Part shown: in pieces, positions 4,201-37,824 of the stretch
Numbering within the stretch: position 1 is the first letter of the stretch
How the letters are laid out: the number at the start of each line of letters is the position of its first letter
Assembly: GCA_902571135.1 (NCBI GenBank)
Contig: CACGAU010000001.1
Location: forward strand, 62,001 to 126,000
From: an uncultured Pelagibacteraceae bacterium
Lineage (GTDB): Bacteria > Pseudomonadota > Alphaproteobacteria > Pelagibacterales > Pelagibacteraceae
Reading direction: 5' to 3'
DNA: 64,000 nt
Notes under the pieces: generated by a model
Databases searched by the model: none
What the model was told of the DNA's origin: nothing
Seen by the model: the letters and a program-made list of their open reading frames with translations, nothing else
Translations under genes and position numbers: made by a program

Positions 4201-5324
4201 TGAGTGATGATATTAAAAAAGGCTTACTTGGTATTGTTGTAGATGAAACAGAAGTTTCAAAGGTAATGCCAGAAATAAATTCTCTTACTTATAGAGGATA
4301 TGCAGCTCAAGATTTATGTGAATACTGTAGATTTGAAGAAGTTGCATATCTGATTCTTAATAAGGATCTTCCGAATACTATCCAACTAAGACAATTTGAA
4401 AAGGAAGAGAAAAATAATAGAGAGTTAACAAAAAATTTATATGAAATAATCAAACACATGCCAAAAAAATCTCATCCAATGGATGTTGCAAGAACAGCTG
4501 TAAGTGTGATGGGGTTAGAAGACAAAGAAACTACAGACTCTTCACCAGAGGCAAATATGAGAAAAGCTTTAAGAATTTTTGCAAAAACCCCAACAGCATT
4601 AGCAGCTTTTTATAGAATAAGAAAAGGAAAAAAAATTATAAAACCAAAAAAAACATTAACTTTTGCTGAAAATTTTTTCTATATGTGTTTTGGAAAAGTT
4701 CCTCAAAAAGAAATAGTTAAAGCTTTTGATGTATCATTAATTTTATATGCTGAACACAGTTTTAATGTTTCAACTTTTACAGCAAGAACCATTACTAGTA
4801 GTTTGTCTGATATTCATGGTGCAATCACAGGAGCTATTGCAAGTTTAAAAGGTCCACTGCATGGTGGAGCTAATGAGGAAGTAATGCATATGATGAATAA
4901 AATTAAAAAACCAGAAAATGCTCTAAAATGGATAAATAATGCTTTAAAGAATAAAGAAGTTGTAATGGGATTTGGTCACAGAGTTTACAAGTCAGGTGAT
5001 TCAAGAGTCCCAACTATGAGACAGTATTTTGGCAAAGTTGCTAAAATTAAAAAAGATAAAAAATTTGAAAAAATTTATGACATTGTAGAAAAAGTAATGA
5101 TTAAAGAAAAAAATATTTATCCAAATGTAGACTATCCTACTGGACCTACTTACCACTTAATGGGCTTTGATACTGATTTCTTTACACCTATTTTTGTTAT
5201 TTCAAGAATTACTGGATGGTCTGCTCATATCATGGAGCAACATGCTGCAAATAAACTTATCAGGCCTTTAGCAAGTTATAAAGGTAACAAGCATAGAAAA
5301 GTAATGCAATTAAACCAACGATAA
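4200..5324 (+). CDS. prpC: 2-methylcitrate synthase
   Basis: A 374-residue citrate-synthase-fold enzyme; the short length and context fit 2-methylcitrate synthase, which joins propionyl-CoA and oxaloacetate. Catalytic elements are all present: HGGANEEVM (first His), GFGHRVYKSGDSR (second His and substrate arginines) and PNVDYPTG (catalytic Asp). It is the last gene of the prpDBC operon and begins in a TAATG overlap with prpB. It ends 1 bp before the stop of a convergent methyltransferase gene; no terminator hairpin is visible. Some enzymes of this group also accept acetyl-CoA, so residual citrate synthase activity is possible. Confidence 0.9.
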   Translation: MSDDIKKGLLGIVVDETEVSKVMPEINSLTYRGYAAQDLCEYCRFEEVAYLILNKDLPNTIQLRQFEKEEKNNRELTKNLYEIIKHMPKKSHPMDVARTAVSVMGLEDKETTDSSPEANMRKALRIFAKTPTALAAFYRIRKGKKIIKPKKTLTFAENFFYMCFGKVPQKEIVKAFDVSLILYAEHSFNVSTFTARTITSSLSDIHGAITGAIASLKGPLHGGANEEVMHMMNKIKKPENALKWINNALKNKEVVMGFGHRVYKSGDSRVPTMRQYFGKVAKIKKDKKFEKIYDIVEKVMIKEKNIYPNVDYPTGPTYHLMGFDTDFFTPIFVISRITGWSAHIMEQHAANKLIRPLASYKGNKHRKVMQLNQR

Positions 5325-6017: not shown

Positions 6018-6593
6018 CTAGTCTTGTTGCCAATCTTTTATATCTAGGTACTGGTCGTTAATATAGTCACTCACTTTATCCTCAAATTCCTCAGCATATG
6101 GGGATACAGATATTAATACCTCGCTGCTATTAAATCTTTTTTCACTAACACTTATTATAATTACTCTATTGTTTGCTCCCAAATAATTTAGAAGACTAGT
6201 TTCGCCTCTAATTGTTGTTTGTTCTTTCCAGCCAAAGTTTTCAATATTATTTACATAAAAATTAAATACTGCTGGTTTAGGCTCTGGAACTTCAAGAACA
6301 ATTTGACCACTCCAAGTTTTCCCTTCACCTAAAATTAAACTTTTTTCAACATCTATTTTTGAAAGTTTAACAAATGGAATATCTTTTATTCTTAATAATG
6401 TAGCATCCTCAACATTTTCCATATCACCAGATAAATTTAAATTTCCTTGGTTACATCCTGAGAATACAATAAAGATTACTCCTCCCATCAGGTATGCTAA
6501 AGATTTGCTCCTAAATTTATTAAAAATTTTGATAAAAAATAAATACGTATCTAAAAAAAACAACTTAATTAATAAATACTTATATACTCTCAT
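6018..6593 (-). CDS. Putative lipoprotein of unknown function
   Basis: I do not recognise the family. The frame holds 191 residues; residues 30-47 look like a lipoprotein signal (basic KFRSKS, hydrophobic stretch, lipobox VFSGC with the Cys at about residue 47). That places the usual start later than the first Met. A start at the internal ATG (Met36) gives a very short n-region, so the true start is uncertain. The mature part (about 145 residues) is mixed alpha/beta with no obvious catalytic motif. It follows nrdB by 8 bp on the same strand and so is probably transcribed with nrdAB, though a role in nucleotide metabolism is not implied. Confidence 0.55.
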   Translation of the reverse strand: MRVYKYLLIKLFFLDTYLFFIKIFNKFRSKSLAYLMGGVIFIVFSGCNQGNLNLSGDMENVEDATLLRIKDIPFVKLSKIDVEKSLILGEGKTWSGQIVLEVPEPKPAVFNFYVNNIENFGWKEQTTIRGETSLLNYLGANNRVIIISVSEKRFNSSEVLISVSPYAEEFEDKVSDYINDQYLDIKDWQQD

Positions 6594-35213: not shown

Positions 35214-35732
35214 TTATTTTTCAAACTTAAAATCTTTAATATTTGTAGTTTCATATTTCTCAAAAGGCATATGTATCCAAGGAGAATCTTTTAAGTAATC
35301 TACAGAATAATCAGGTTTAAATTTAGAAGTTGATTTATGCCATAAAACTGCAGTTTTAATTTTTTCATCAAAATAAAAACCATAAAAATGTTCTAACCAT
35401 TTAATACTTTTTATTAAAGTTTTTCCAGAATCAGCTAAATCATCAACTAATAAAACATGCGATCCCAAATTTGGAGTAGTTTTTGCTAAATCTCTTGAAA
35501 AAGTAAACTGTCCTTGTTGATTTTTTATATCATCACTATCACCATGGTAAGATTCAACAGATAAGATAGCTAGAGGGACATTAAAAAGTCTACTAAAAAT
35601 ATCTCCAACTCTTAATCCACCTTTTGCAATACAAATTATTTGATTAAACTTTAAATTATCATCATGAATTTTTTTAGCTAATTGCTCTATCTTTTTATGA
35701 TAATCTTCCCAAGTTATATAAATATCTTTCAT
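35214..35732 (-). CDS. Purine phosphoribosyltransferase (Gpt/xanthine-guanine type)
   Basis: A 172-residue phosphoribosyltransferase. The PRPP motif VLLVDDLADSGKT is near residue 97, with IICIAKGGLRVGD as the pyrophosphate-binding loop and PWIHMPFE near the end as in Gpt. It probably salvages xanthine, guanine or hypoxanthine. The frame extends another 25 codons upstream, but that part reads through a copied tRNA-Met 3' half and is not a real N-terminus. ATG 35732 is only 6 nt from the copied CCA and has no Shine-Dalgarno. If the ancestral tRNA-Met once abutted this gene, tRNA processing would leave a nearly leaderless message. Confidence 0.78.
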   Translation of the reverse strand: MKDIYITWEDYHKKIEQLAKKIHDDNLKFNQIICIAKGGLRVGDIFSRLFNVPLAILSVESYHGDSDDIKNQQGQFTFSRDLAKTTPNLGSHVLLVDDLADSGKTLIKSIKWLEHFYGFYFDEKIKTAVLWHKSTSKFKPDYSVDYLKDSPWIHMPFEKYETTNIKDFKFEK

Positions 35733-35738
35733 AATTTT

Positions 35739-35785
35739 TGGTAGCGGGAAGTGGGATCGAACCACTGACCTCGGGCTTATGAGTC
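35739..35785. repeat. 47-bp copy of the tRNA-Met 3' half (candidate attachment site, gpt side)
   Basis: Exactly identical to 37748-37794, the tRNA-Met gene from the CCA end through the anticodon. Similarity stops sharply at both edges. The 5' half of a tRNA is absent, so it cannot make a tRNA. This is what tyrosine recombinases targeting tRNA genes leave at the distal end of an element. Confidence 0.88.
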
Positions 35786-35994
35786 TATCGCCATGAACCC
35801 TGCTCACTCACTCTAAAGCAATTACTCCTGTAAATGCTCTCTTTCCTTTCTTAGCATATTGAATCAAATTTAAGAATCTTAGTCAAGAACCAATGTCATT
35901 GGAGCACTATTGGAGCAATAAAAATTCGAGTACTTTTGAAGTTTATATCGTTTAAATCAATAAAGTTTAAAATTTATTTTAATAGGAGATAGAA
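35786..35994. other. Left end of the islet, non-coding
   Basis: 209 bp without an ORF of note. Position 35786-35895 resembles neither the tRNA nor the opposite end; 35896-35918 is the inner repeat. An AGGAG ribosome-binding site for the EF-hand gene is at about 35983-35987. Confidence 0.5.
35896..35918. repeat. 23-bp inner direct repeat, copy 1
   Basis: Identical to 37704-37726. It contains TTGGAGCA twice, separated by CTA, an 11-bp period (one helical turn), the form expected of a tandem recombinase or regulator site. It is 110 bp inside the outer repeat. Confidence 0.8.
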
Positions 35995-36291
35995 ATGATT
36001 GATTTAAAAAAAAAAATTATAAAAGTTCTAATTACTTTGATTATATCAACTACTTCATTTAGTGCATTAGCTCATGACGAGATTAATTTAAAAGGTAAAT
36101 TTCAGAATATCGATACTAATAATGATGAAACAATATCTTTAGAGGAGTTTAAAAATTTCGTACTAGAGAATAGAAGAATGAATAGATTAGAGAGAATATT
36201 TAATCGAATTGATAATAACTCTAATGGAGAAATAACAATCGAGGAACTAGAATTATTTCAAAAAAAATTTAGAGAAAAGCAAAAATCTTAA
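35995..36291 (+). CDS. Exported EF-hand calcium-binding protein
   Basis: A 98-residue protein with a signal peptide (1-26, ending SALA|HDE) and two canonical EF-hand loops, at residues 40-51 (D40, N42, D44, S48, E51) and 73-84 (D73, N75, N77, G78, T81, E84). It should be periplasmic and bind calcium or a similar ion. First gene of the islet, with its own AGGAGA ribosome-binding site. 76 bp separate it from the ECF sigma gene, so it may be co-transcribed or a target of that sigma factor; this is inference. Confidence 0.78.
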   Translation: MIDLKKKIIKVLITLIISTTSFSALAHDEINLKGKFQNIDTNNDETISLEEFKNFVLENRRMNRLERIFNRIDNNSNGEITIEELELFQKKFREKQKS

Positions 36292-36367
36292 ATTTAATTA
36301 ACAGATTTTGTTTAGATGTATTTATTAAATCTATTTAAATTATGGATAATAATTTAAAAATATTATC

Positions 36368-36916
36368 ATGTCCTATGATTCAGAATCTGATTATATTTTG
36401 CTTAAAGAAATACAAAAAGGAAATCATTCTGCGTTTAGCAAACTTGTAAATATTTATACAACAAGATTTTATAGTATGGCTTATCGATATTTAAATAATC
36501 AACAGGATGCTGAAGACATAGTTCAAAAAGCATTTTTAAAATTGTGGAAAAACCCTTATTCTTGGACACCAGGTAAAGCAAAATTTACTACATGGTTTTC
36601 ACGTGTAATAATCAATTTATGCCTAGATCAGCTAAAAAAAAGAAAACTAGTTAGCATATCTGAGAATTTTGAATTTATGGATCAATCAACACTTCAAATA
36701 GAAAAAATAATAAAGGAAGAAAGGAACATTTTAGTTCAAAAAGCTATTCAACAACTTCCCACAAGACAAAAAACTGCTCTAATTCTTTGTTTCCTCGAAG
36801 GCTATTCAAACAAAGAAGTAGCAACTATTCTAGAAACAACTGAAAAAGCTGTACAATCATTATTGTTAAGGGCAAAAGATTTTTTAAAGAGACAAATAGA
36901 TATTACAAAATTATGA
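36368..36916 (+). CDS. ECF-type RNA polymerase sigma factor
   Basis: A 182-residue group IV (ECF) sigma factor. Region 2 spans about residues 10-80 with DAEDIVQKAFLKLW and the following TWFSRVIINLCLDQLKKRK, and region 4 about 125-175 with LPTRQKTALILCFLEGYSNKEVA and the recognition helix TEKAVQSLLLRAKDFLK. It has no extra C-terminal domain. The gene order sigma - small single-TM protein - periplasmic sensor-like protein matches CnrYXH-type systems. No Shine-Dalgarno is visible before ATG 36368. Confidence 0.9.
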   Translation: MSYDSESDYILLKEIQKGNHSAFSKLVNIYTTRFYSMAYRYLNNQQDAEDIVQKAFLKLWKNPYSWTPGKAKFTTWFSRVIINLCLDQLKKRKLVSISENFEFMDQSTLQIEKIIKEERNILVQKAIQQLPTRQKTALILCFLEGYSNKEVATILETTEKAVQSLLLRAKDFLKRQIDITKL

Positions 36917-36932
36917 TAGAAAATTAAATTTG

Positions 36933-37262
36933 ATGCAAAACAAAAATAATAAAAACATAGATGCAATACTTAACAAACTTCAAGTAAAGCCTCATAGTAA
37001 AGATCTGGAAAAAAACATTATATATAAAGCTAAACAAATGAAACAGGGCAAATCATTTGTTTTTAATATTAATTATTTAATTGAAAGTTTTTCAGACAAT
37101 TTACTTTTGCCATCAGCACGTCTTAATGCAGCAATTATTCTTATAGTTGGTTTTTTTGGAGGCATTATTGTTTCTAATTTATCAATACAAAATGAACTGC
37201 AATTAATTTTCAATGATAATTTTATAACAGAATTATTTTTTGATGAGGATATATCTATATGA
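36933..37262 (+). CDS. Putative membrane anti-sigma factor (CnrY-like position)
   Basis: A 109-residue protein from ATG 36933 (TTG 36930 also in frame) with no recognised family. Residues 1-60 are cytoplasmic, charged and helical; a single membrane segment (LNAAIILIVGFFGGIIVSNLS) lies near 64-84; the short tail would be periplasmic. This topology, the position right after an ECF sigma gene, and the ATGA overlap with the next gene fit an anti-sigma factor. Zinc-binding anti-sigma motifs (HX3CX2C) are absent. Function is inferred from context. Confidence 0.6.
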   Translation: MQNKNNKNIDAILNKLQVKPHSKDLEKNIIYKAKQMKQGKSFVFNINYLIESFSDNLLLPSARLNAAIILIVGFFGGIIVSNLSIQNELQLIFNDNFITELFFDEDISI

Positions 37263-37690
37263 ATTACACTAAATATTTCCTAACATTTTCTATAATTTTA
37301 AATTTAGTCTTAATTGGTTTTATTATTGGTAATAAATTTAATACTAATTTCTTAAAAAAAGATAAATTTACAAATAATAAAATTGTTAAATTAATTTCAA
37401 AAACAGAATTGACTGAAGATAAAAAAGAAGAATTTATAGAACGAATTAAGAATTTAAAAATTTCAAAAAATCAAAAAAGAGAAGTTAGAAAATTGTGGCG
37501 AAATAAAATAAAGAAAATTATTGAGGCAGATGAATTCGATGAGGACGCACTCAAGGTATTATTAGAGAAACGAGCTAGTATTTTTGCAGATAACCGAGGA
37601 GAAGCAATTGATACAATAATTGACTTGCTAAATACGCTTTCTAAAAAAGATCGTATAAGAATATCTAAATTAATTCTTAAAACAGATTGA
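37259..37690 (+). CDS. Membrane-anchored periplasmic sensor-like protein (CnrX/Spy/Metal_resist type)
   Basis: A 143-residue protein with an N-terminal membrane anchor (about 6-24) and a helical periplasmic domain. The C-terminal helix DTIIDLLNTLSKKDRIRISKLIL and the preceding helices resemble the CnrX/ZraP/Spy group, which bind metals or act as chaperones. Oddly it has no His or Cys at all, so CnrX-like metal sensing through such ligands is excluded; acidic residues or protein contacts remain. It overlaps the anti-sigma candidate by 4 bp. It probably controls it; not proven. Confidence 0.55.
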   Translation: MNYTKYFLTFSIILNLVLIGFIIGNKFNTNFLKKDKFTNNKIVKLISKTELTEDKKEEFIERIKNLKISKNQKREVRKLWRNKIKKIIEADEFDEDALKVLLEKRASIFADNRGEAIDTIIDLLNTLSKKDRIRISKLILKTD

Positions 37691-37703
37691 ACTTAACCAA
37701 TTC

Positions 37704-37726
37704 TCATTGGAGCACTATTGGAGCAA
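37704..37726. repeat. 23-bp inner direct repeat, copy 2
   Basis: Identical to 35896-35918 and in the same orientation, 21 bp inside the tRNA end. Same internal tandem of TTGGAGCA with an 11-bp period. Confidence 0.8.
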
Positions 37727-37747
37727 AATAATATCGATCGTCTAGAA

Positions 37748-37824
37748 TGGTAGCGGGAAGTGGGATCGAACCACTGACCTCGGGCTTATGAGTCCCGCGC
37801 TCTAACCAACTGAGCTACCCCGCC
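37748..37824 (-). tRNA. tRNA-Met (anticodon CAU), elongator type
   Basis: A complete 77-nt tRNA on the minus strand, 5' end at 37824 and encoded CCA at 37748-37750. The acceptor, D, anticodon (loop CUCAUAA) and T arms (AGUGG/CCACU stem, UUCGAUC loop) all form. Two end pairs of the acceptor are G-U, and the last anticodon-stem pair is A-G, a mismatch that may be lineage-specific. Initiator features are missing, so elongator Met is likely; a tRNA-Ile with CAU modified to lysidine is the alternative. Its 3' half is copied at 35739-35785. Confidence 0.9.

Follow-up and report, generated by a model that had tools for sequence, protein, structure and literature searches.

Introduction

How can a segment of DNA without a recombinase gene come to lie between an intact tRNA-Met gene and an exact duplicate of the 3′ half of that gene? 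This question is raised by positions 35739–37794 of a 64,000-nucleotide stretch of contig CACGAU010000001.1 from an uncultured SAR11 bacterium of the Pelagibacteraceae (the whole stretch analysed is hereafter called the window). A first-pass annotation had described the segment as possibly a non-autonomous mobile cassette with the architecture of attL and attR sites with arms, and had likened it to the tycheposons. The sequence comparisons described here make it likely that the segment is an integrated, non-autonomous site-specific cassette, bounded by attL and attR and moved by integrases that phages, satellites or islands using tRNA-Met supply in trans.

Repeats at the Two Ends of the Element

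The two ends are built as the first-pass annotation had drawn them. An exact 47-bp repeat, the core, marks both outer borders, and its second copy is the 3′ half of tRNA-Met; just inside each end lies an exact 23-bp repeat, TCATTGGAGCACTATTGGAGCAA, which consists of two TTGGAGCA units at an 11-bp period (coordinates in Table 1). This arm-like repeat is found 110 bp inside the left core copy and 21 bp inside the right one. The paired motif (≤1 mismatch) and the 46-bp core (≤3 mismatches) each occur twice in the window and not once in 100 dinucleotide shuffles, and across the assembly (1.16 Mb, 87% complete) an exact paired motif is present at the two element ends only. The PF00589 recombinase family has no match in this assembly, at that completeness.

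Empty Sites and a Family of Cassettes

Four relatives (G050, G022, G038, and G070) have an empty site, in which tRNA-Met directly adjoins the conserved Gpt-like gene and a single core stands between the flanks. In these genomes the BLASTN matches of the two window flanks overlap by 47–48 bp, that is, by the core; thus, the window differs from them by the insertion of one core and everything between. Furthermore, more than 20 genomes carry alternative cargo at the same tRNA-Met. A scan of 399 genomes of the genus with the 46-bp core (≤3 mismatches) revealed that the core is present in 297 of them, and that 20, the window's own included, have two or three cores clustered within about 4 kb on the same strand of a contig. 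Together with the single cells AG-897-P04 and AG-365-F20, these make 22 genomes harboring 26 cassettes with both cores, 552–4805 bp long from core to core, only one of which exceeds 4 kb. Arrays of two cassettes occur in G149, G157, G254, and AG-365-F20. Three further cassettes of the window's left-end type (T1, see below) have a decayed left core (G012, G211, and G465), and AG-439-N14 carries the window's own cassette. In total, there are at least 30 cassettes in 26 genomes, and 23 of the 399 sampled genomes have one; these counts are lower bounds, given contig breaks and other core variants. Among 200 relatives, the exact TTGGAGCA pair occurs six times, in three genomes, each time inside a tRNA-Met cassette.

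Two loci show arm-bearing ends without a core. In G145, two internal T1-like arm ends lie within one cassette (L038, 8320–8522), likely the fusion scar of two cassettes. In SCGC AAA797-I19 (L122), two 93% identical arm-bearing ends (5022–5062 and 6463–6503) lie about 1.4 kb apart at a contig end; they are probably a further T1 cassette, which was left out of the cassette count.

Four left-end families, named T1–T4 here, were told apart by eye. The T1 left end, the window's type, reads TATCGCCATGAACCC... and has the arm TTGGAGCA-CTA-TTGGAGCA or variants such as TTGACGCGTATATGGAGCA; T2 ends have TTGGAGCATATGTGGAGCA at the left and TTGGAGCACCAGTGGAGCA at the right, T3 ends have GTGTGTCA-like pairs, and T4 ends TGACGCATGAGAGACGCA. 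The left end of the window (core, spacer, and arm) is 92–93% identical over 183–195 bp to those of G145 and G164. A 27-mer of the T1 left-end spacer (≤3 mismatches) matches in 13 of the 399 genus genomes, of which 10 are in the 26-cassette set and three are the cassettes with decayed left cores, and it has no match in viral contigs.

An 11-bp period marks many ends of the family. When a fixed interval next to the right core was compared with itself, a period-11 match of at least 6/8 was found for 24 of the 26 right ends, versus 9.0% of random intervals from the same cassettes, and only 0–4 of 26 have one at periods 8–10 and 12–15. At the left ends (60–150 bp after the core), a self-match of at least 7/8 is found in 14 of 26, versus 6.2% of control windows; other periods give 0–2 of 26 at the same threshold.

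Evidence for Recent Movement

Several cassettes are shared between genomes. Those of G000 and AG-439-N14 are 99.0% identical over 1963 bp, compared with 95.3% in the left flank and 87.9% in the right flank. Likewise, the cassettes of G200 and G315 are 97.1% identical (left flank, 77.9%; right flanks without a match beyond 36 bp), those of G164 and G474 94.5% (left flank, 78.8%), and those of G224 and AG-897-P04 97.8% over 927 bp (left flank, 80.2%). In an extreme case, G224 and AG-365-F20 share 98.8% identity over 855 bp between left flanks that are not homologous. Since shared cassettes are 94–99% identical while their flanks are 78–95% identical or unrelated, the cassettes have moved recently, also between species. 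Modules are shuffled among the cassettes of AG-365-F20, AG-897-P04, and G224, and a match of 73% over 652 bp links the T3 cassette of G283 to the T2 cassette of G326.

Arm Pairs Beside Integrase Genes Elsewhere

The repeat was also looked for beside integrase genes. Searching viral contigs for TTGGAGCA-N3-TTGGAGCA yielded 50 loci, and searching GTDB genomes for TTGGAGCA-NNA-TTGGAGCA yielded 87, among them loci of uncultured Pelagibacteraceae single cells such as AG-901-M14 and AG-439-N14; on this basis the host was assigned to SAR11. Integrase-family open reading frames (ORFs) were called with a hidden Markov model grown from the integrases among these loci: 29 of the 137 loci have one, no more than 400 bp from the motif in 22 cases, versus about 5% of random positions. 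The other 108 loci, which include the SAR11 cassettes, have no such ORF; many of the 137 are probably chance matches, being from non-marine taxa with no integrase near. Pairs of TTGGAGCA adjoin tyrosine-integrase genes in unrelated phages and bacteria. For example, at a PS1-clade locus (L158), a tRNA-Arg 3′ end is followed by a TGCTCCAA pair and then by the integrase ATG, the mirror image of the window's right end. Viral contigs L079 and L089 have TTGGAGCA pairs on both sides of a sequence resembling a tRNA 3′ end, beside an integrase, a layout of the attP type. Phage PAJU2 has a tRNA-like core with a 7-of-8 pair, and 9 of 16 inspected SAR11 integrase loci have an 11-bp-period pair (≥7/8) within 45 bp of the start codon. 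In the integrase region of Pelagiphage HTVC028P, neither a match to the tRNA-Met core nor a perfect paired 8-mer was found.

Arms of other types were scanned for in viral contigs as well. T3-like arms gave 44 loci, 18 of which have an integrase-family ORF within 600 bp on either side; this count has no random control and serves as a lead only. T4-like and T5-like arms gave one and eight loci, none with an integrase-family ORF.

Two side observations come from the TTGGAGCA scans. In three marine alphaproteobacterial genomes (L151, L152, and L154), a TTGGAGCA pair lies about 150 bp from tRNA-Ser(GCT), and no integrase-family ORF was found near; the gene may be another cassette target. A gammaproteobacterial metagenome-assembled genome, ARS1012 (L160), has the TTGGAGCA pair at three sites, of which one carries a mismatch; two of the three are 1.5 kb apart, in surroundings 87% identical, and may form a cassette array in another class.

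Integrase-Bearing Elements at the Same tRNA-Met

Three viral contigs hold the exact 46-bp core (L226, L228, and L227, the last a 755-base stretch of a larger contig). In L226 and L228, the core lies in a tRNA-Met gene between two CGTACC pairs (at 257/268 and 484/495 in L226), and a 424-aa integrase adjoins the tRNA gene (PF00589 in L226). In G130, an integrase adjoins the core, accompanied by a TGTCACAA pair; the stretch also encodes a C5 DNA methylase and an HNH/HIT protein. Integrases 62–65% identical to that of G130 are located on the 5′ side of tRNA-Met in G294, G468, G382, G424, and G363, with TGTCACA pairs. In the last four of these genomes (L258–L261), a displaced tRNA 5′ half of 30 bp marks the far side, and the island of G468 carries a type I restriction-modification set (HsdM, HsdS, and HsdR-like) between the tRNA and this displaced half. 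Furthermore, at tRNA-Met G301 and G266 (L285 and L286) carry elements of about 4.5 and 5.5 kb with an integrase; that of G266 has a match to the small terminase subunit and an AAA protein, and resembles a phage satellite. A primase and polymerase reading of the large non-integrase gene of G301 and of a 503-aa gene of G130 was unsupported, as neither has a Pfam family. With several integrase types found at tRNA-Met, this target is used by several integrases. None of the integrase-bearing elements found there has T1 arms.

A resident integrase in the same genome was considered as a helper and set aside. A PF00589 search of 30 chosen genomes gave matches in 22, which are Xer-like by phmmer to a G012 protein, except the second one of G130. 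The other eight (G000, G145, G164, G052, G239, G315, G474, and G070) have no match, a weak absence because these assemblies are 55–87% complete.

Cargo of the Cassettes

The features of the window's element and its surroundings are collected in Table 1. The 143-aa cargo protein has weak matches only, the best other one among 200 relatives with an E-value of 4.7e-4.

Table 1. Features of the tRNA-Met locus; positions are those of the window.
Feature	Position	Strand	Basis
Left flank: Gpt-like phosphoribosyltransferase, directly beside tRNA in four empty-site relatives	35214..35735	-	Pfam PF00156
Left core, displaced duplicate of tRNA-Met 3′ half (putative attL core)	35739..35785	+	47-bp exact match to 37748-37794; single copy adjoining both flanks in 4 relatives
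Type-1 left-end spacer, kept between cassettes with unrelated cargo	35786..35895	+	Left-end comparison
Left arm-type site, two TTGGAGCA units, 11-bp period	35896..35918	+	Exact repeat; same pair beside integrase genes elsewhere
EF-hand protein, 98 aa	35995..36291	+	Pfam PF13499, E 8.7e-16
Extracytoplasmic function (ECF)-type sigma factor, 182 aa	36368..36916	+	Pfam PF04542, PF08281, PF07638
110-aa protein, family not assigned	36930..37262	+	ORF, no Pfam match
143-aa protein, hydrophobic N-terminus, family not assigned	37259..37690	+	ORF, no Pfam match over cut-off
Right arm-type site, two TTGGAGCA units, 11-bp period	37704..37726	+	Exact repeat; period-11 signal in 24/26 right ends
TCTAGAAT, directly outside right core, common to all end types	37741..37748	+	Identical in 22/26 cassettes
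Intact tRNA-Met(CAT), attachment gene; 3′ half 37748-37794 = right core (putative attR)	37748..37824	-	ARAGORN, Rfam

Neither the 67 ORFs nor the 539 six-frame pieces of the 26 cassettes gave an integrase-family match. A Pfam scan covered 23 of the 67 ORFs, the window's four and 19 from other cassettes, and within these no replication, packaging, or transfer genes were seen. The cargo is diverse: a trypsin-like protease in G052 and G283; an arylsulfotransferase with pirin, a flavodoxin-like reductase, and an HxlR regulator in G145; an ArsP permease with an ArsR-like regulator in G200, whose cassette recurs in G315; a LysE translocator in G224, with the same gene in AG-897-P04 and AG-365-F20 by DNA match; a dienelactone hydrolase in G254; and a tautomerase in G412. 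The AG-897-P04 cassette encodes a cupin, cytochrome b561, and a choice-of-anchor protein, and those of AG-365-F20 encode HupE, a glyoxalase, and a sub-threshold HNH match. Two of the 19 ORFs, of 66 aa in G164 and 261 aa in G367, have no Pfam family.

Some ORFs of T2 and T3 cassettes (L211 of G157, L223 of G326, L210, L218, and L220) start with a near-identical signal peptide, MKKLLGIVVLGLL, and nearly the same peptide is found three times within one cassette in both G157 and G326. A loose pattern matched 11 ORFs, two of them of a different MRKL type. It looks as though different exported proteins had drawn on one signal-peptide module.

Proposed Mechanism and Rival Explanations

The ends of the element would be the attL and attR of a tyrosine integrase, each made of the 47-bp core and one arm-type site. 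By bringing its own tRNA 3′ half, the cassette would leave the tRNA whole after insertion. We infer that an integrase supplied in trans, from a phage, a phage satellite, or an integrative island using the same tRNA-Met, excises the cassette as a circle, and that some vehicle carries it between cells. In the attP of the circle, both arms would stand round one core, and the integrase would insert this circle, or that of another cassette, into the intact tRNA; arrays would arise when such insertions recur on the tRNA side. In the array of G254, the mutated core belongs to the outer cassette, which agrees with an entry of new cassettes at the intact tRNA, although this is a single case.

Several results weigh against this proposal. 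An integrase with T1 (TTGGAGCA) arms and the tRNA-Met core was not found in the 399 genus genomes, in the arm scans of genomes and viral contigs, or in the core and left-end scans; neither a circle nor an attP junction of any cassette was seen; and the cassette has no blastn match in phage or plasmid records. The arms themselves are not uniform: at the 6/8 threshold, 21 of 26 left ends have a pair, but chance gives 33%, and five are below 6/8 in the tested interval. Left and right arms of one cassette sometimes differ in sequence, so that one helper must tolerate both. Among the 16 inspected SAR11 integrase loci, seven lack an 11-bp-period pair (some have another spacing, and one start is unsettled), and Burkholderia phage Paku, with a related integrase, has no clear arm pair.

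Could the cassettes be dead relics of full integrative elements, immobile since the loss of their integrase and shared between species of old? Some copies are indeed decaying, as the left core is degenerate in G012, G211, and G465 and has two mismatches in G367, and a 52-aa match to an integrase N-terminus lies beside the G326 cassette. However, near-identical cassettes stand between diverged, even unrelated, flanks, 39 of the 43 cores in the 20 genomes with two or three cores match the window's core perfectly, and no integrase remnant is present inside the 26 cassettes; we regard relics as improbable. Somewhat less probable still is that cargo is swapped through homologous, not site-specific, recombination of the conserved ends (about 150 bp at the left, and 50 bp plus the core at the right). 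The T1 ends are conserved though their cargo is unrelated, and fused and shuffled modules in AG-365-F20, AG-897-P04, and G145, as well as hybrid arm sequences, fit such exchange; yet it explains neither how an empty tRNA first received an insertion with its 47-bp core duplication nor the arm pairs of the kind that adjoins integrases. Homologous recombination may well act in addition to site-specific recombination. Finally, that the repeats are chance or a structural motif without a role in recombination is hardly credible: no support for it was found, the repeats are absent from the shuffles, and the exact pair is confined to tRNA-Met cassettes among the 200 relatives and stands beside integrases elsewhere. 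Neither is the same cargo fixed at this site in every relative, nor is the repeat a common structural motif at unrelated loci. The mobile, attL/attR-bounded cassette of the first-pass annotation is thus supported by the empty sites, the alternative cargo, and the arm pairs beside integrases.

Comparison with Known Systems

The kind of element is already known. Cis-mobilisable elements (CIMEs) are described, in the parts of the source consulted, as keeping attL and attR without integration and transfer genes, as accreting in tandem at a target gene, and as decayed integrative and conjugative (ICEs) or mobilisable elements (IMEs) (PMC5704250). Like CIMEs, the SAR11 cassettes have a core and an arm-like pair at both ends, which would function as att sites, no integrase-family match in the 26 cassettes, no transfer genes as judged by Pfam on 23 of 67 ORFs, and a tandem arrangement in arrays of two. 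Unlike CIMEs, they are 0.5–5 kb long and form a SAR11 family of four end types with many cargos. An origin from an ICE was not seen; no remnant lies inside the cassettes, and a 52-aa integrase match lies beside that of G326. In the passages concerned, additive flexible genomic islands of marine and freshwater bacteria are reported to have cassettes that are inserted at a tRNA and show a direct repeat of its end, including small tRNA cassettes exchanged between genera in Actinomarinales and tRNA-end-repeat cassettes in Alteromonas (PMC7771536, PMC4119200, PMC10872708). The SAR11 cassettes likewise lie at a tRNA, have a direct repeat of its end, and are absent in some strains; the additive-island cassettes are described in those passages without arm sites, end types, or an integrase assignment, and PMC7771536 makes no use of the word integrase.

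Tycheposons are summarised as tRNA-bounded cargo elements of marine bacteria, of 4–200 kb and with a tyrosine recombinase (PMC10872708). Of the likeness drawn by the first-pass annotation, the tRNA at the border holds, while size and recombinase do not: the 26 cassettes have no tyrosine recombinase of their own and are 0.55–4.8 kb long, 25 of them not above 4 kb, so that they are set apart from tycheposons as summarised there. Integron cassettes and clusters of attC sites lacking integron-integrases (CALINs) are, in the excerpts cited, arrays of varied cargo served by an integrase in trans (PMC11389934, PMC2217521). The SAR11 cassettes share the arrays of varied cargo and the proposed integrase in trans, but their common boundary is a tRNA core with an arm pair; hypervariable regions of SAR11 are reported without attC in the excerpt of PMC2217521. 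SAR11 phages, according to the section cited, integrate at tRNA-Leu(TAG) and bring their own tRNA (PMC6811365). The targeting of a tRNA in SAR11 is common to both, whereas the phages carry an integrase and phage genes; relatives of these phages that use tRNA-Met are possible helpers, not cassettes. Phage satellites differ as well, the cassettes having no integrase and the scanned cargo no replication or packaging genes. What is new, beside the CIMEs and the tRNA-inserted cassettes of additive islands, is a SAR11 family with arm-defined end types at a target common to several integrases. No description of such a tRNA-Met cassette family was found among the SAR11 and Pelagibacter papers listed, as judged by titles and abstract openings.

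Implications for SAR11 Genomes

A wider reading, held tentatively and at somewhat less than even chance, is that the tRNA-Met of SAR11 is a shared, integron-like docking site, where different integrases, brought by visiting phages, satellites, and restriction-modification islands, load and unload at least four integrase-less cassette lineages that each have an arm-pair code of their own. The signature, paired 8-mers with an 11-bp spacing that adjoin the 3′ end of a tRNA, can be used to seek integrase-less cassettes elsewhere and to match them to integrases. The cassettes offer a concrete and testable route for gene exchange: their ends are defined, their target is exact, their cargos are many, and there are candidates for the helper. 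If the docking site is true, it would give the genome-streamlined SAR11 bacteria a cheap exchange of accessory genes without keeping a recombinase.

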